Assembly: GCF_020805785.1 (NCBI RefSeq)
Contig: NZ_JAJGZV010000004.1
Coordinates: 1 to 64,000, forward strand
Direction: 5' to 3'
Length of the DNA: 64,000 nucleotides
Origin: Flavobacterium chungbukense
Lineage (GTDB): Bacteria; Bacteroidota; Bacteroidia; Flavobacteriales; Flavobacteriaceae
In this document: piece after piece, positions 16,475 through 49,578 of the stretch
Position numbering within the stretch: the stretch's first letter is position 1
Layout: each line of letters starts with the position of its first letter
Position numbers and translations under genes: made by a program
Notes under the pieces: generated by a model
What the model was told of the DNA's origin: nothing
Databases searched by the model: none
What the model saw: only the letters and a program-made list of their open reading frames with translations

Positions 16475-17248
16475 TTATGTATTCGACGTATTATTCTTAA
16501 TCTCTCGAACTTCCCTTTTCAATTCCAAAAGCAAATCTTTCATTGCTCCAGTTTCTGTTATTTCTTGTTTTTTATCCGAACGGCCGATATTACATTCGTA
16601 TTCCCAAATCTCTAAAATATCAGAAGCTTTCACTTCATAATTCGGATAAAAACTATTATCTGATTCTAGAACCAAAGCGTTCTTTTTGTTTTTATTGAGA
16701 CGCTTATACACCATTCCTTCATTTTTAGTAATAAGAATATAGGTTTTGCCGTCCATCACCTCTCCTAGTTTTTCCACATAACGACCAATAATAATAGAAC
16801 CGTCTTCGTGTGGAGGCATTGAATCGCCTTCAACGGGAAATCCGCGGTGTTTTCCAGGTCCTAAAAAAGGGAGTGTAATTTGCTGTAAACTTTCAATATA
16901 TTCTGGATCAGCATATCCGTTTAGATAACCTGCTTTTGCTTTTTGAGATACAATTTCAATAAAATTTTCTCCAAAACTATCCACTTGAATGGGTAAAATA
17001 AGTCGGTTACCTTCTAGTTTTATCAAATTTTGCACATCAATTTTACGGATATCGACAGATAATATCAAATCGATACTCATATGAAAATATAATGCAATCT
17101 TCTTTAAAATGTCATACGGTGCTTCCGAAGTTCCGTCTTCGTATTTAACGTATCTTCCTCTTGTAATACTCAGGTTTCCAGCTAATTTCTCTTGTGATAT
17201 TTTATGCTTAACCCTCAATGCTCTGATGTTATCTGAAAATAAGGACAT
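16475..17248 (-). CDS. XRE-type repressor with LexA/CI-like S24 peptidase domain
   Basis: A 257-residue repressor. Residues 5-65 form an XRE helix-turn-helix (ISQEKLAGNLSITRGRYVKY). The C-terminal half is an S24 peptidase domain: candidate cleavage pair Ala106-Gly107, nucleophile Ser143 in VEGDSM, general base Lys182 in MVYKRL. The spacings (37 and 39 residues) are close to LexA (35 and 37). Such proteins cut themselves when bound to RecA filaments and release their operators. The ATG at 17248 starts the helix-turn-helix; an earlier in-frame start would run into the divergent gene. Divergent from dinB across 88 bp, so it most likely represses the polymerase operon and itself. Confidence 0.88.
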   Translation of the reverse strand: MSLFSDNIRALRVKHKISQEKLAGNLSITRGRYVKYEDGTSEAPYDILKKIALYFHMSIDLILSVDIRKIDVQNLIKLEGNRLILPIQVDSFGENFIEIVSQKAKAGYLNGYADPEYIESLQQITLPFLGPGKHRGFPVEGDSMPPHEDGSIIIGRYVEKLGEVMDGKTYILITKNEGMVYKRLNKNKKNALVLESDNSFYPNYEVKASDILEIWEYECNIGRSDKKQEITETGAMKDLLLELKREVREIKNNTSNT

Positions 17249-17267
17249 AATTAATTTGTTATAATTT

Positions 17268-17317
17268 GGAACAGCAAATATACAAAAAAATGTTCTTGTC
17301 TGTGCTAATTTTGTTCC
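17268..17317. promoter_or_regulatory. Divergent promoters with shared TGTTCC operators
   Basis: Plus strand: -7 box TAATTTTG at 17306-17313 overlaps TGTTCC at 17312-17317, ahead of dinB. Minus strand: -7 box TATATTTG at 17282-17275 is followed by TGTTCC at 17273-17268, ahead of the repressor. A third half-site TGTTCT lies at 17291-17296. A repressor bound to these half-sites would cover both start regions. No clear -33 TTG on either side. Confidence 0.6.
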
Positions 17318-17336
17318 ATACAAAAACAAAAGGAAA

Positions 17337-18518
17337 ATGGCACGGGCAATTGTACATATGGATCTGGATACCTTTTTTGTATCCTGCGAAAGACGCACAA
17401 ACTCTGAACTCAACGGAATTCCGCTTATTATAGGTGGCGGAGATCGTGGTGTTGTGGCTTCTTGCTCTTATGAAGCCCGTAAATTTGGAGTACGTTCTGC
17501 CATGCCAATTCGTATGGCATTAAAACTTTGTCCTGACGCAAAAGTGATGAAAGGCGACATGGAATTGTACTCGCAACTCTCTCATGATGTTACCGAAATT
17601 CTTCAGGAAAAAGCACCCGTTTTAGAAAAAGCAAGTGTCGACGAATTTTATCTGGATATTACCGGAATGGATAAATTTCACGGCAGTTATAAATGGACCA
17701 ATGAACTGGCTCAAAAAGTGATTAAAGAAACAGGACTTCCGATTAGTTTTTCATTATCCATCAATAAAACCGTTTCTAAAATTGCGACTGGAGAAGGCAA
17801 ACCTGTCGGAAACCTTCAAATTCCGGAGCAAGGTGTGCAAGATTTTTTAAATCCGTTATCGATTCAGAAAATTCCAATGGTCGGAGCTGTTACTTTTCAG
17901 CTTTTGTCTCGAATTGGTGTTCGTAAAATTCAGACTTTGGCCGAAATGCCTGCTGAAGTTTTACAACAGATGATTGGTAAAAATGGTCTAGAACTTTGGA
18001 AAAAAGCACACGGAATTGATCACACACCTGTTGAACCTTACACAGAAAGAAAATCAATTTCTACCGAAACTACTTTTTCTCAGGACACTATCGATCTTGC
18101 CAAATTGAGAAGAATATTATTAGGAATGGTCGAGAAACTGGCTTTTCAGCTTCGTGCTGAACAATGGTTAACCTCAACCGTTACCGTTAAAATACGTTAC
18201 GCTAATTTTGATACCGAAACCAAACAATGCCGAGTGGCTTATACTTCAGCAGATCATGTTTTGACGAAAAATGTAATAGAGCTTTTTGAAAAAGTCTATC
18301 AGCGTCGTATGCGTCTGCGCTTGATTGGTGTTCGCTTTAGCGGATTGGTTCGAGGTACTTATCAAATTGATCTTTTTGAAGATACTCAGGAAATGTTATC
18401 CCTTTATGAAGCGATGGACAAGATGAAAAGCCGTTATGGTTTTGATGCTGTAATGCGCTGTGCAGGAGCTTCTTTTAAACCCAATACTAAAGACGAAATT
18501 TTAAAACGTAAAAAATAA
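17337..18518 (+). CDS. Y-family DNA polymerase (DinB/ImuB-like)
   Basis: A 393-residue lesion-bypass polymerase. Catalytic acidic residues are in place: MDLDTFF (Asp9) and SVDEFYLD (Asp102, Glu103), so it should be active, unlike ImuB, which usually lacks them. A helix-hairpin-helix region follows near 180-210, then the little-finger domain, and a likely beta-clamp motif QIDLF at 343-347. Its stop codon overlaps the start of dnaE (TAATG), so the two polymerases are made together. Expected to copy past damaged bases with errors. Likely repressed by the divergent S24 protein. Confidence 0.93.
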   Translation: MARAIVHMDLDTFFVSCERRTNSELNGIPLIIGGGDRGVVASCSYEARKFGVRSAMPIRMALKLCPDAKVMKGDMELYSQLSHDVTEILQEKAPVLEKASVDEFYLDITGMDKFHGSYKWTNELAQKVIKETGLPISFSLSINKTVSKIATGEGKPVGNLQIPEQGVQDFLNPLSIQKIPMVGAVTFQLLSRIGVRKIQTLAEMPAEVLQQMIGKNGLELWKKAHGIDHTPVEPYTERKSISTETTFSQDTIDLAKLRRILLGMVEKLAFQLRAEQWLTSTVTVKIRYANFDTETKQCRVAYTSADHVLTKNVIELFEKVYQRRMRLRLIGVRFSGLVRGTYQIDLFEDTQEMLSLYEAMDKMKSRYGFDAVMRCAGASFKPNTKDEILKRKK

Positions 18519-21500
18519 TGTATCTCAATTGTCATTCTTACCATTCATTACGTTACGGCACAATTCCGCTTCAGGAATTGATTGCTGAAGCTGTCTCGTA
18601 TGGTGTAAAAACAATGGCATTGACGGATATTAATACCGTTACCGGAATTTATGATTTTATAAAAGCATGCCAAGAAAAAGAAATTAAACCTCTAATCGGA
18701 ATGGAATTTCGATGCAATCATCAATTTCGATATATTGGTTTGGCTCAAAATGCAGAGGGTTTGGCCGAAATGAATGTTTTTCTAACTGAACATAATTTCA
18801 GTGGAGAAACTTTGCCATTGATTGCTCCCAAATTTAAGTCGGTTTTTGTGATTTATACTTTAGAAAATGCTCCAAAAGTGCTTCGCGAAAATGAATTTAT
18901 CGGCATTCGTCCTGAAGAAGTTTCGAGGCTTTTTACATCGGAACATAAAAATAAAACCTCCCAAATGGTGGTTTTACAGCCTGTAACTTTTAGAACCAAA
19001 ACAGAATACAATCTGCATAAAATTCTTCGAGCTATTGATACCAATATTATTTTATCCAAACTCACAGAATCTGATCACTGCAAGATTTCTGATGTAATGC
19101 AACCTGTAGAGTCTCTTTTGCCTTTTTATGAAAAATATCCTGAAATTATAATCAATACCCAGAAAATCATTGATTCCTGCCATTTTGAATATGAATTTGG
19201 TATTCCAAGAAATAAAAAATTCTATACCGAAAGCCGTCAGGAAGATTTAGAAAAGTTGACCGAATTGGCTTGGGAAGGATTTGAAAAACGTTATGGAAAC
19301 GAAAATCCAGAAGCAAAAGCCCGTGTAGAAAAAGAATTAAAAGTGATTGATGAATTGGAATTCAGCGGTTATTTTTTAATTACTTGGGATATCATTCAAT
19401 ACAGCAACAGTCAAGGATTTATGCACATCGGGCGCGGAAGCGGAGCCAACAGCATTATAGCTTATTGTCTCGGAATTACGGATATCTGTCCAATCGAACT
19501 CGATTTATATTTTGAACGTTTTTTAAACCTCAACCGTAAAACTCCTCCCGATTTTGACATTGACTGGAGCTGGCAGGAGCGCAACGTAATTCTAGAATAT
19601 ATATTTAAAAAATACGGTAAAGATCATGTTGCTTTTTGTGGCACGAATGTCGAGTTCAAGTACCGATCTATTTATAGAGAAGTGGGTAAAGTTTTTGGAC
19701 TTCCAAAAGAAGAATTAGACATTTTAGCCAAAAATCCGCAAGAACTTCATCCTACAAACAAAGTAGTGAGGATGGTTCAACAATACGGAAAAATGATGGA
19801 AAAATATCCAAACCAACGTAGTATGCATGCGTGTGGAATTCTGATTTCTGAAGAACCAATTACCAATTACACGCCTTTAGAAATGCCTCCAAAAGGATTT
19901 CCAATCGTGCTTTTTGACATGCATATTGCAGAAGAAATTGGTTTTGAAAAATTCGATATTCTGAGTCAACGAGGAATCGGTCATATTGATGACAGCGTAA
20001 AACTGATTATGAAAAACCGAGGGATAAAAGTGGATATTCGCAACACTTCGATTTCTAAAGACGAAGCGGTTTGCAATTCTTATTTAGCAAAAGGCCATAC
20101 AATTGGCTGTTTTTATATTGAAAGTCCCGCGATGCGTGGTTTATTACGCCGTTTGAATTGTGATAATTATAAAATTCTAGTGGCTGCTTCGTCGATTATT
20201 CGTCCCGGAGTTGCGCAATCTGGAATGATGAAAGAGTATATCTTTCGCCATAATAATCCAACACAATTTGAGTATTTTCATGAGGTTTTCAAAGAACATC
20301 TGGGAGAAACTTACGGCATTATGGTCTATCAAGAAGATGTGATTAAAATTGCCCAGCATTACGGCGGACTTCCCGCTGCTGACGGTGATATTTTACGTCG
20401 CGCCATGTCTGGAAAAGGAAGATCTCTAGAGGCGCTGCAAAAAGTAAAAGATAATTTCTTTGCCAGCTGTGCTCAAAAAGGGCATCCGTTAGAATTAAGT
20501 CAGGAAATTTACCGTCAGATCGAATCTTTTGCTGGATATTCTTTCTGCAAAGCGCACTCGGCTTCTTATGCGGTTGAGAGTTATCAAAGTTTGTATTTGA
20601 AAGTAAATTTTCCTGTCGAATTTATGACCGCTGTAATCAATAATCAGGGCGGGTTTTATAGAACTGAAGTGTATGTACATGAAGCACGAATGTCTGGCGG
20701 AACAGTTCATAATCCGTGTGTGAATAAAAGCGAATACCAAACTACTTTATACGGTACCGATATTTATCTCGGTTTTATGCACATTCAAAGTCTTGAATCG
20801 AAAACGGCACATTTAATTGAAGAAGACCGAAATAAAAATGGCGATTATATTTCGTTGGAAGATTTTATCAATCGAATTCCAATAGGAATTGAAAGCATTA
20901 AAACTTTGATATTTATGGGTGCTTTCCGTTTTACAGAAAAAACTAAAAATCAGCTTTTGGTTATTGCAAGTTTGCTTTTAAACAATTTTAAACCTGAAAA
21001 TAGAGCCTTAAAACTTTTGCAGGAACCTGTTAAAGAATACAAATTGCCAACCTTGGAACGTTCTGTTTTTGAAGATGCATTTGACGAAATCGAATTGTTA
21101 AGTTTTCCTGTTTCGTGTACTGTTTTTGACATTTTACAAACCAAATATCGCGGTGATGTGATGGCGAAAGATTTAGTAAAACACCATAAAAAACAGGTTA
21201 GAATGCTGGCATATTTAATTTCCAGAAAACATGTTCCGACTAAAAAAGGTACGATGTATTTTGGAACTTGGATCGATCATGAAGGCACTTATTTTGATAC
21301 AGCACACTTTCCAGATAGTTTAGAGCAACATCCTTTTCAAGGTGGCGGCTGTTATCTATTGTTAGGAAATGTCGAAGTCGATTATCATTTTCCAACAATT
21401 ACAATTATTAAAATGGCAAAAATGCCTTTTATTCCAGATCCACGTTATATGGATTCAAAAGATCAATATAGAACACAAAATCAGATTAAAGAAGATATAA

Positions 21501-21571
21501 GCCTAACCCATAGAAAACCTTATCCGTCTGAACATGAGATTAATTTGCCGAGACATAGAATGAAGTTTTAG
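18518..21571 (+). CDS. Second DNA polymerase III alpha subunit (DnaE2-like)
   Basis: A 1017-residue C-family polymerase. It starts with a PHP domain (CHSYHS at 5-10), has GRGSGANSIIAYCLGIT at 305-321 and the catalytic aspartates in PDFDID (344-349), then palm, fingers (FCKAHSASYAVESYQSLYLK region, shown here only in part) and helix-hairpin-helix, ending with a short OB-like region. It is shorter than replicative DnaE (about 1160 or more). Overlap with the DinB-like gene and an SOS-type repressor point to a role in damage-induced DNA synthesis like DnaE2/ImuC. No ImuA-like gene is present. Confidence 0.9.
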   Translation: MYLNCHSYHSLRYGTIPLQELIAEAVSYGVKTMALTDINTVTGIYDFIKACQEKEIKPLIGMEFRCNHQFRYIGLAQNAEGLAEMNVFLTEHNFSGETLPLIAPKFKSVFVIYTLENAPKVLRENEFIGIRPEEVSRLFTSEHKNKTSQMVVLQPVTFRTKTEYNLHKILRAIDTNIILSKLTESDHCKISDVMQPVESLLPFYEKYPEIIINTQKIIDSCHFEYEFGIPRNKKFYTESRQEDLEKLTELAWEGFEKRYGNENPEAKARVEKELKVIDELEFSGYFLITWDIIQYSNSQGFMHIGRGSGANSIIAYCLGITDICPIELDLYFERFLNLNRKTPPDFDIDWSWQERNVILEYIFKKYGKDHVAFCGTNVEFKYRSIYREVGKVFGLPKEELDILAKNPQELHPTNKVVRMVQQYGKMMEKYPNQRSMHACGILISEEPITNYTPLEMPPKGFPIVLFDMHIAEEIGFEKFDILSQRGIGHIDDSVKLIMKNRGIKVDIRNTSISKDEAVCNSYLAKGHTIGCFYIESPAMRGLLRRLNCDNYKILVAASSIIRPGVAQSGMMKEYIFRHNNPTQFEYFHEVFKEHLGETYGIMVYQEDVIKIAQHYGGLPAADGDILRRAMSGKGRSLEALQKVKDNFFASCAQKGHPLELSQEIYRQIESFAGYSFCKAHSASYAVESYQSLYLKVNFPVEFMTAVINNQGGFYRTEVYVHEARMSGGTVHNPCVNKSEYQTTLYGTDIYLGFMHIQSLESKTAHLIEEDRNKNGDYISLEDFINRIPIGIESIKTLIFMGAFRFTEKTKNQLLVIASLLLNNFKPENRALKLLQEPVKEYKLPTLERSVFEDAFDEIELLSFPVSCTVFDILQTKYRGDVMAKDLVKHHKKQVRMLAYLISRKHVPTKKGTMYFGTWIDHEGTYFDTAHFPDSLEQHPFQGGGCYLLLGNVEVDYHFPTITIIKMAKMPFIPDPRYMDSKDQYRTQNQIKEDISLTHRKPYPSEHEINLPRHRMKF

Positions 21572-21574
21572 TGT

Positions 21575-21640
21575 TCAGTCTCAGTCGCAGTATTCAGTAA
21601 AACACTGAGACTGAGAACTGCGACTTAAAACTGAAAACTA
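21575..21640. repeat. Short repeat cassette of CAGT/ACTG words
   Basis: CAGTCTCAGT near 21586 pairs with ACTGAGACTG at 21604-21613, and AGTCGCAGT pairs with ACTGCGACT nearby. A relative of the same words lies at 49520-49570 between rpoB and rpoC. It sits between dnaE and the nuclease gene without a T-run, so read-through is possible. Confidence 0.55.
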
Positions 21641-21677
21641 AAAAAAATAACTAAAGAAGAACCTACGTTATATAAAG

Positions 21678-23057
21678 ATGAAAAATACGGAATATGCTAT
21701 AGTCGATATTGAAACCACAGGCGGAAATGCAAGTGGCAGCCGCATTACAGAAATTGCAATTATTATTCATGATGGCAAAAATGTGCTGGATCGTTATGAA
21801 ACACTTGTAAATCCAGAGAAAGAAATACCACTTTCTATTTTTGGTTTAACAGGCATTAATAACGAAATGGTAGCCAATGCGCCAATTTTTGATGATATTT
21901 CGGAGAAAGTTCTCGAAATGCTGACTGATCGTATTTTTGTTGCGCATAATGTCAATTTCGATTATTCATTTGTCCATCATCAGTTAGAACAAGCCGGCTT
22001 TAAATGGTCTGCCAAAAAACTCTGTACTGTTCGTGCAGCCAGAAAAATCAGACCCGGATTAGGTTCTTACAGCTTAGGAAATCTTTGCAACTCTTTGAAT
22101 ATTTCTTTAGAAAACAGACATCGCGCCGGCGGAGATGCAGATGCGACTGCAATGCTTTTTTCTCTCTTAATGGAATGGGACGATGCAGGAGAAATTGAAA
22201 AAATGATCAAAAAAACGGCACAAGATCAGCGTTTGCCTCCTAACCTGCCTCCTGATGATTTTAATAATTTGCCCGAAAAACCGGGAGTCTATTATTTTTA
22301 TAATCAAGCGAAAAAAGTAATTTACGTTGGAAAAGCGATTAATTTAAAAAAACGTGTCACTTCTCATTTCACTGGAAATAATATTAATCCGCAAAGACAG
22401 CATTTTTTGCGAGATATTCACGGAATCTCTTTTGAAGTCTGTGCAACCGAATTAATGGCGCTTTTACTAGAATGCACCGAAATCAAAAAATTATGGCCGA
22501 CTTACAACAGAGCCTTAAAACGTTTTGAAGCAAAATTCGGTATTTACCAATATGAAGCCCGAAATGGTTATAAATATCTTGCCATTGGAAAAGTAAGTAA
22601 ATTTCAGGTTTGCATTCATGAATTTAGCACTTTATACGAAGGTATCAATTTACTTCGAAGTCTGGCAGAACGATTTGAAATAGATCATCGCTTCTGCAAA
22701 TATTCAAAAACTGAAGAAGGAGAATTATTCTATAATAATGAAGTAAAAAGTCTGCCTGACGTTATATCCCATAATGCACAAGTCGATAACGCAATTGATT
22801 ATTTGTTAAACAACAGACCTTCTTTTGCTATTATCGACAAAGGAAAATCAAAAGAAGAACGCAGTTGTGTCTGGATTGAAAACGGACATTTTTATGGCAT
22901 GGGATATCTGCCTTCTGACATTTCCATTCATGAAGCTTCAGAAGTAAAAAATTATGTTACGCCTTATAAAAGCAATCAGTATATAGAACAGTTGATTTTT
23001 ACCTACGCAGAAAAACATCCTGGAAAAGTATATTTTAAAAAGCATTTCTTAACCTAA
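21678..23057 (+). CDS. DEDDh exonuclease fused to GIY-YIG nuclease domain
   Basis: A 459-residue fusion. Residues 5-165 are a DnaQ-type 3'-5' exonuclease: DIETTG (Asp9, Glu11), HNVNFDYSF, and RHRAGGDADAT with the final His and Asp. Residues about 200-280 are a GIY-YIG domain of UvrC/Cho type: PGVYYFYNQ then IYVGKAINLKKRV. The C-terminal part has no motif I recognise. Related proteins are annotated as DNA polymerase III epsilon/UvrC-like. Its place after the two polymerases suggests proofreading or incision at lesions for this set. Same direction, 106 bp after dnaE. Confidence 0.9.
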   Translation: MKNTEYAIVDIETTGGNASGSRITEIAIIIHDGKNVLDRYETLVNPEKEIPLSIFGLTGINNEMVANAPIFDDISEKVLEMLTDRIFVAHNVNFDYSFVHHQLEQAGFKWSAKKLCTVRAARKIRPGLGSYSLGNLCNSLNISLENRHRAGGDADATAMLFSLLMEWDDAGEIEKMIKKTAQDQRLPPNLPPDDFNNLPEKPGVYYFYNQAKKVIYVGKAINLKKRVTSHFTGNNINPQRQHFLRDIHGISFEVCATELMALLLECTEIKKLWPTYNRALKRFEAKFGIYQYEARNGYKYLAIGKVSKFQVCIHEFSTLYEGINLLRSLAERFEIDHRFCKYSKTEEGELFYNNEVKSLPDVISHNAQVDNAIDYLLNNRPSFAIIDKGKSKEERSCVWIENGHFYGMGYLPSDISIHEASEVKNYVTPYKSNQYIEQLIFTYAEKHPGKVYFKKHFLT

Positions 23058-23098
23058 AATCAAGTTAGAGAAAAATAGAGCTATAAAAAATCAAAATT

Positions 23099-23725
23099 AT
23101 GACACTATTTAGCGACACCGAATTATTTACGACTGGACACGCAGGTAAAAAAATATTTGATCTTCCGGACTGTGACCTGATTCTGATTGATAATTTTTTT
23201 AGCAAAGAAGAATCAGATGCTTTCTATGAAAGAATACTGCGCAAAACTAAATGGAAAGAATATGAAATGGAAGTTTATGATAAAACGTATACTGTTCCCC
23301 GCATGATATCATGGTACGAAGACAAAGATAATCCTGGCGCAGATCCAAACGGACCTGACTGGACGTATGAATTATTAAAAATCAGAAGCCGTGTAGAGAA
23401 AGAAACCAAGCTTGATTTTAATAGTCTGCTGTTAAATTTATACCGAAACGGAAAAGACGGCGTAGGCTGGCACAGCGATAGGGAAGACAAATCTGGCAAA
23501 GACCCAATTATTGCTTCTGTGACTTTTGGAGAAACAAGAATGTTTAAACTTCGTCATAAATTTAGGAAAGATATTCCGTTGGTCGAAATACCGCTTCATC
23601 ATGGTTCTTTCTTACTAATGGCGGGAACTACCAATAGTTTTTGGCAACACCACGTTCCTAAAACGGCACGTAAAGTTTTACCTAGAATTAATTTAACTTT
23701 TAGGCAAACGCAACGTAATACGTAA
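23099..23725 (+). CDS. AlkB-like 2-oxoglutarate/Fe(II) dioxygenase
   Basis: A 208-residue protein of the AlkB family, which removes alkyl groups from DNA or RNA bases by oxidation. Seen: NLYRNGKDGVGWHSD with the iron-binding His and Asp, a second histidine in WQHHVPKT, and the arginine in LPRINLTFR that binds 2-oxoglutarate. Length fits the family. It lies 41 bp after the exonuclease gene and closes the island, consistent with a repair role after alkylation. Confidence 0.93.
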   Translation: MTLFSDTELFTTGHAGKKIFDLPDCDLILIDNFFSKEESDAFYERILRKTKWKEYEMEVYDKTYTVPRMISWYEDKDNPGADPNGPDWTYELLKIRSRVEKETKLDFNSLLLNLYRNGKDGVGWHSDREDKSGKDPIIASVTFGETRMFKLRHKFRKDIPLVEIPLHHGSFLLMAGTTNSFWQHHVPKTARKVLPRINLTFRQTQRNT

Positions 23726-49296: not shown

Positions 49297-49519
49297 AGTT
49301 TTTACTATTGATTTATTTGCAATTAAAAAATTGAATTTAGATTTATAATCTACTCTCTAAAAACTAAAGAGTTAATCATTCAGCTACTACCTCGGATTAC
49401 TTCTCTAAACCTCAAAATTAAATTTGAAGTGCTAGTTATAAAATGCATTGCATTGTTATAAAAAATCGGAACGGGTTACGGGTATAAATCTTTAAAAACT
49501 TGTAACATTTAGTAAACAA

Positions 49520-49560
49520 TCTCAGTCCCAGTTTTCAGTGCTAAACTGAATACTGAGACT
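49520..49560. repeat. Hairpin of CAGT/ACTG words between rpoB and rpoC
   Basis: CTCAGT...TTTTCAGT pairs with AACTGAATACTGAG. Same words as the cassette at 21575-21640. It interrupts the rpoB-rpoC spacer (282 bp). Confidence 0.5.
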
Positions 49561-49578
49561 GTGACTGAAATTTTTTAT

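Follow-up and report, generated by a model that had tools for sequence, protein, structure and literature searches.

A divergent S24 repressor and polY-dnaE2 operon of Flavobacterium chungbukense, probably an SOS control locus of a known kind with a closely linked AlkB-type gene

Does a cluster of five repair-type genes in Flavobacterium chungbukense answer to a private, phage-like switch, or is it part of the SOS response of its host? The genes lie at positions 16475-23725 of the window, the whole stretch of 64,000 nucleotides that was analysed (assembly GCF_020805785.1, contig NZ_JAJGZV010000004.1, positions 1 to 64,000, forward strand). A repressor gene with an S24 domain stands divergent from genes for a Y-family polymerase (PolY), a short C-family polymerase (DnaE2), a DEDDh exonuclease/GIY-YIG fusion and an AlkB-type dioxygenase. 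All five genes are intact, their domains were assigned by Pfam profile search (Table 1), and catalytic motifs, with the meanings that we take them to have, were found in all five proteins. By all signs in the sequence the locus is functional, and very probably these genes form a genuine SOS operon of an already known kind. With high confidence, the locus appears to be the SOS control locus of this Flavobacterium and the S24 protein its non-canonical LexA.

Table 1. Features of the locus, in window positions.
Feature	Position	Strand	Remarks
S24/HTH repressor	16475..17248	-	257 aa; PF12844/PF01381 HTH and PF00717 S24
Operator O1 (predicted), TGTTATAATTTGGAACA	17257..17273		between repressor promoter and start codon; 8 bp before start
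Repressor-promoter -7 element, TATATTTG	17275..17282	-	TAnnTTTG; read from sequence
Operator-like O2, TGTTCTTGTCTGTGCTA	17291..17307	+	overlaps -7 element of polY promoter; weaker dyad, by eye
polY-operon promoter -7 element, TAATTTTG	17306..17313	+	read from sequence
Y-family polymerase (PolY)	17337..18518	+	393 aa; PF00817, PF11799; catalytic motifs intact
Clamp-binding-like motif QIDLF of PolY	18363..18377	+	residues 343-347
RecA-NT-like motif of PolY	18378..18458	+	residues 348-374; aligns with N-terminus of the genome's own RecA
Short C-family polymerase DnaE2	18518..21571	+	1017 aa; PF07733, PF17657, PF14579, PF02811
Long hairpin at dnaE2-exonuclease junction	21566..21643		followed by A's, not T's
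DEDDh 3'-5' exonuclease/GIY-YIG fusion	21678..23057	+	459 aa; PF00929, PF01541
AlkB-type 2OG-Fe(II) dioxygenase	23099..23725	+	208 aa; PF13532; phrog_21963 alkylated DNA repair

The gene set, order and domains proposed in the initial annotation all held, as did its overlap of the polY stop with the dnaE2 start, which have one base in common (18518). The spacers before the exonuclease gene (106 bp) and before alkB (41 bp) are both longer than this junction. Among the best 80 of 590 loci from a DnaE2-alignment search (some ended by contig ends), repressor, PolY and DnaE2 matches occur together in 50, PolY and DnaE2 only in 15, DnaE2 only in 14, and repressor and DnaE2 in 1. Because the three are co-located in so many loci, the arrangement is not due to chance. 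All five genes are present in 10 of the 80, all of them from Flavobacterium. Joint conservation, on which the initial annotation had staked its grouping, thus holds for repressor, PolY and DnaE2; the exonuclease and AlkB are optional yet linked.

The most likely start of the repressor is the ATG at 17248 (MSLFSDN...) and not the TTG at 17413 given in the mechanical list of open reading frames (ORFs); a similar start is found in 8 of 9 other orthologues (the tenth row of the alignment is incomplete). It therefore does not overlap polY, and 88 bp separate the two starts. The S24 residues Ala106-Gly107, Ser143 and Lys182 are present; across 10 orthologues Gly107, Ser143 and Lys182 are invariant, and Ala106 is kept in 8. 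This gene is the sole PF00717 match in the whole genome. Its helix-turn-helix is of the CI type, and PF01726, the winged helix-turn-helix of LexA, gave no match at E 0.01. These features suggest a non-canonical LexA of Bacteroidetes rather than a canonical LexA.

For the repressor and polY promoters we take TAnnTTTG to be the -7 consensus. Close relatives have O1 in the corresponding position, as exact TGTTAC-AAATT-GTAACA in L055, L058 and L062. In the window O1 has drifted to an imperfect dyad that pairs at 4 of 6 arm positions, whereas some relatives have perfect dyads. An element similar to O2 occurs in other polY promoters. By eye, the presumed operator of the repressor promoter changes as the repressor diverges while its position just after the -7 element stays constant (L063, L065, L066, L070 with TGTGAATTAAATTCACA, L071).

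CI-like S24 proteins have been established as SOS regulators of Bacteroidetes by electrophoretic mobility shift assay (EMSA) and RT-qPCR (Sanchez-Osuna 2021, PMC8565304). As described there, these proteins combine a CI-like helix-turn-helix with an S24 domain carrying Ala-Gly and Ser-Lys, adjoin a Y-family polymerase gene, and have dyad-N5-dyad operators in their own promoters and before other SOS genes, often repeated per promoter. The window repressor shares all of these features. The Elizabethkingia anophelis regulator bound TTAC-AAATT-GTAA in EMSA, which is the O1 core of several relatives of the window; the published groups include CTAA-N5-TTAG and GGA-N5-TCC. Predicted regulons in that paper hold dinB-dnaE, GIY-YIG exonuclease and topoisomerase genes. 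The window differs in its imperfect O1 and, as far as passages of PMC8565304 show, in a site before uvrA.

That site came from a genome-wide pattern, TGTTMY-N5-RKAACA, derived from the genome's own three polY promoters. Five of its 11 sites in the 5.35 Mb genome are clear of ORFs: those before repressor/polY, before the second and third polY copies, before uvrA and before a GyrB/ParE gene. The other six are within ORFs of at least 70 aa; one of these sites (L103) also just precedes another ORF, for which NCBIfam gave no match at 1e-10. The sites of uvrA and GyrB/ParE stand about 67 bp upstream of their genes. Genome G052 has both again with equal spacing, and G041 has the GyrB/ParE site, a comparison that covers only part of the operator sites in these two genomes. 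For the first 478 aa of the topoisomerase, the NCBIfam score slightly favours GyrB over ParE. In fetched stretches, polY copies away from the repressor carry an exact operator in 7 of 8 cases (L005, L006, L228-L232) and one mismatch in the eighth (L227); a further copy (L233), whose upstream stretch is ended by the contig end, is outside the count. Since the copies are paralogues, this count is not one of independent cases.

Several observations weigh against the SOS reading. The number of sites is barely above that of a reversed-pattern control (11 vs 8), so the argument rests on the placement of the sites and not on their number. Because three of the five well-placed sites defined the pattern, only those before uvrA and GyrB/ParE are independent of it. 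G041 has a further site before a 149-aa ORF without known function (L112). The recA site, TGTGACAATTTGGAACA, starting 152 bp upstream, favours the reading by its presence but is imperfect, with one mismatch; in the recA promoters of 12 relatives the identical site occurs in 5, a different one-mismatch site in 2, and a two-mismatch site or none in 5. An AlkB gene that stands divergent from the repressor in L065 has no operator within one mismatch, and neither do two separated exonuclease genes (L225, L226). Another operator is possible for these two, as the L226 genome is without a repressor orthologue and the L225 repressor is only 53% identical. NCBIfam scores DnaE2 at 551 bits as DnaE1 and at 477 as an error-prone polymerase, both below cut-off. 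Finally, with the 106-bp spacer and its strong hairpin before them, the exonuclease gene and alkB may or may not share the transcript.

Two weaker searches were dropped. A looser pattern, TGTTNYN5RNAACA, gave at least 88 sites against 54 in its control. Generic 17-bp palindrome scoring did not separate real promoters from shuffles, as 74% of shuffled promoters reached at least 5 of 6 arms. In 35 promoters (L061, L074 and L080 were excluded in advance for an ill-fitting upstream stretch), 10 reach 5 arms at position -25 and equally many at -77; palindromy alone is therefore no evidence.

If the locus is the SOS control locus, a repressor dimer on O1 and O2 would shut both divergent promoters, and the repressor would also bind in trans at the sites seen before two further polY-dnaE2-alkB copies, uvrA and the GyrB/ParE gene. 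RecA filaments on damaged DNA would then provoke self-cleavage at Ala106-Gly107, for which the residues are intact, and derepression would follow. By analogy with published modules, PolY may use its RecA-NT-like motif to dock on RecA and QIDLF to dock on the clamp, and insert opposite the lesion, with DnaE2 extending. Family membership makes it probable that the DEDDh/GIY-YIG nuclease trims or nicks ends that are stalled or flapped, and that AlkB directly reverses alkylated bases in single-stranded regions. The locus offers a compact test case for damage-induced mutagenesis in bacteria without a classical LexA.

The distribution of the genes was counted in those 52 of 61 Flavobacterium genomes that reach 90% completeness with no more than 5% contamination; the other nine were left out. 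Repressor orthologues (E at most 1e-80) were found in 27. Near full-length DnaE2 is present in 25 genomes, 24 of the 27 with the repressor and 1 of the 25 without it (Fisher p 1.6e-10, without correction for kinship). The single exception, G043, keeps a broken repressor piece. A close exonuclease (at least 66% identity) was found in 16 genomes (15/27 vs 1/25, p 5e-5) and the AlkB clade (at least 64%, full length) in 14 (13/27 vs 1/25, p 4e-4). Distant homologues of the exonuclease and AlkB (about 33-45% identical), present in most genomes, were not counted. In one genome (G016, locus L061, 8710-10235) the repressor start is lost, a transposase-like ORF (by eye) stands just before the repressor, and the genome holds only a DnaE2 fragment; this locus is apparently in decay.

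The lower counts of the exonuclease and AlkB than of DnaE2, and the hairpin in the spacer, would suit a functional unit of repressor, polY and dnaE2 only, with the two downstream genes as mere bystanders. This is unlikely, since the downstream genes keep their ties to the repressor and its operator. All 18 close AlkB genes (one fragment, in G055, included) adjoin the repressor or a DnaE2, and in L054, L056 and L065 AlkB alone is divergent from the repressor, with an exact operator in L054 and one mismatch in L056. Outside the locus, one stand-alone exonuclease gene has an exact operator (L223) and another a one-mismatch copy (L224).

The regular pairing with AlkB is the less familiar part of the SOS locus and, together with the exchange of umuDC and polY-dnaE2 described below, is worth following. 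The motifs HSD (HxD) and RINLTFR (RxNxTxR) of the window AlkB are intact. AlkB is absent from the main text of PMC8565304, and titles and the starts of abstracts in the literature gave no evident link of AlkB with DnaE2 in Flavobacterium or with SOS or LexA in Bacteroidetes. In three Chryseobacterium loci (L142, L148, L155) a different AlkB homologue (37-40% identity) adjoins the repressor gene and shares its strand; this pairing is perhaps independent.

In three relatives (G008, G056, G051), with repressors 92-98% identical to that of the window, umuD-umuC occupies the slot of polY-dnaE2. tblastn found umuD and umuC in all three loci; the repressor and AlkB are kept in all three and the exonuclease in two. 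In L052 UmuD scores above the NCBIfam cut-off, while UmuC is the best match but below cut-off. The umuD of L050 is matched from residue 2 only and has no ATG as read. This natural exchange, with the repressor on one side and the downstream genes on the other unchanged, suggests that umuDC and polY-dnaE2 can substitute for each other. Three polY-dnaE2 copies persist elsewhere in the G008 genome, so the swap there is one of place and not of content. The likeness to Pol V of E. coli (umuDC) lies in an SOS-controlled error-prone polymerase and in this shared slot, although the proteins are others and the window species has polY-dnaE2 there.

A wider reading, tentative and rather less than an even bet, is that the Flavobacterium SOS promoter acts as a plug-in slot. 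A single LexA-type repressor and a portable two-operator promoter would serve exchangeable PolY-DnaE2, UmuDC, AlkB and DEDDh/GIY-YIG nuclease modules, and a dedicated SOS AlkB clade, in the 52 genomes not found away from the repressor or DnaE2, would couple alkylation reversal to translesion synthesis. If true, base-damage reversal would join a response known for tolerance and mutagenesis.

The exonuclease has the motifs DIETTG, HNVNFD and H148/D153, and the GIY-YIG part has GVY, YVGKA and E265. Its best NCBIfam match, below cut-off, is a PRK07883-type DEDD exonuclease. The predicted structure has a mean pLDDT of 76.8 and a pTM of 0.49, and the 50 Foldseek matches listed for it are only exonucleases and DEDDh-containing proteins; residues 285-459 received no assignment from the matches listed. 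The repressor locus contains 12 of the 16 close exonuclease genes; that of L060 lies beyond the repressor, on its far side. As 11 of the 25 DnaE2 genomes are without a close orthologue, the distribution does not support an obligatory role of the nuclease in proofreading for DnaE2; that the locus brings its own proofreading or incision enzyme had been a guess of the initial annotation.

The private CI-like switch of the initial annotation is probably not what the locus holds, as the repressor is the only S24 gene found in the genome and its operator pattern also precedes uvrA and the type II topoisomerase gene. A related reading, in which a CI switch of a prophage or mobile element has captured repair genes and is no host regulator, is highly improbable. 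The CI-like N-terminus, PHROGs matches for all five proteins, the absence of the repressor from 25 of the 52 genomes and the duplication of polY-dnaE2 within genomes would fit it. Against it stand the two chromosomal operator sites just named and constant flanks, since PAP2 and DUF1810 genes border the locus in all eight retrieved loci (L046-L053) whose repressor is 91% or more identical. Moreover, no phage structural genes were seen by eye among the ORFs at 12-28 kb (eight of them profile-scanned), and the family is that of a chromosomal SOS regulator as published (PMC8565304).

The polymerases of the SOS locus appear active by motif. PolY has MDLDTFF and SVDEF intact, together with QIDLF, presumably a clamp-binding motif, and the RecA-NT-like motif, whose alignment score is equalled by 5 of 1000 shuffles. 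DnaE2 has an intact catalytic Asp motif (PDFDID), and no OB domain was matched in the Pfam profile scan. It is 85-94% identical to DnaE2 of named Flavobacterium species and 76-77% identical to its two paralogues on contigs C1 and C14. Each of the three polY-dnaE2 copies is followed by alkB, directly in two and after the exonuclease in the window.

An apparently active PolY that carries a RecA-NT-like motif and stands beside DnaE2 is the combination that marks the DnaE2B-PolY-RecA mutasome, a group described in Bacteroidetes with all module types supported by AlphaFold models (PMC12926913, 2026); the label DnaE2B is taken from published descriptions, and placement in that clade would be by analogy. 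The window operon likewise has no genes for ImuA or a catalytically dead ImuB, and differs in the three copies, each with alkB downstream. The single PF00154 (RecA) match in the genome is a weak test for ImuA elsewhere. With the imuA-imuB-dnaE2 cassette the operon shares a Y-family protein and a second DnaE under an SOS repressor, but it lacks ImuA and its Y-family member is catalytically intact by motif. The initial annotation was right to see an apparently active PolY in place of ImuB and no ImuA, though not as a novelty. PolY and DnaE2, both apparently active, were reported in one operon without ImuB-C or ImuA in Cellulophaga algicola (PMC6511836, 2019, legend of Fig. 8), and genomes with DnaE1 and three DnaE2, Bacteroidetes among them, were counted in PMC3919608. 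Since these papers and PMC8565304 describe it, the core of the finding is already known.

The order of the NCBIfam scores and the intact catalytic Asp motif would also suit an additional polymerase for replication or gap filling, proofread by the DEDDh protein. There is little chance of this, because a long DnaE1 (open frame of 1537 aa) is encoded separately in the genome and has, by eye, its own exonuclease region, as described for Bacteroidetes (PMC3919608), 27 of the 52 genomes gave no full-length match to the short gene, published trees hold Bacteroidetes DnaE2/DnaE2B groups (PMC3919608, PMC12926913), and 11 DnaE2 genomes are without the close exonuclease. A defence system was rejected, as PADLOC matches were to single domains only (HTH; the DEDDh part of PDC-S48 and other DEDDh; 2OG domain).

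The hairpin region of the dnaE2-exonuclease spacer (21560-21680) folds at -33.5 kcal/mol with a z of -5.3. Hairpins of unrelated sequence occur in the same spacer of L046, L048 and L049 and none in that of L053, L059 and L063. An intrinsic terminator was rejected, as A's follow the hairpin and a terminator scan lists none there. A repeat related to the hairpin lies at 49517-49567. Just before the exonuclease start, at about 21664-21677, is a motif like ACGTTATATA, kept in L046, L048, L050 (where it stands after umuC), L051, L053 and L062; it might be a further control element. In Sphingobacterium pedocola (L137), DnaE2 is 71% identical to that of the window and the repressor match only 38%, which suggests a transfer between families.

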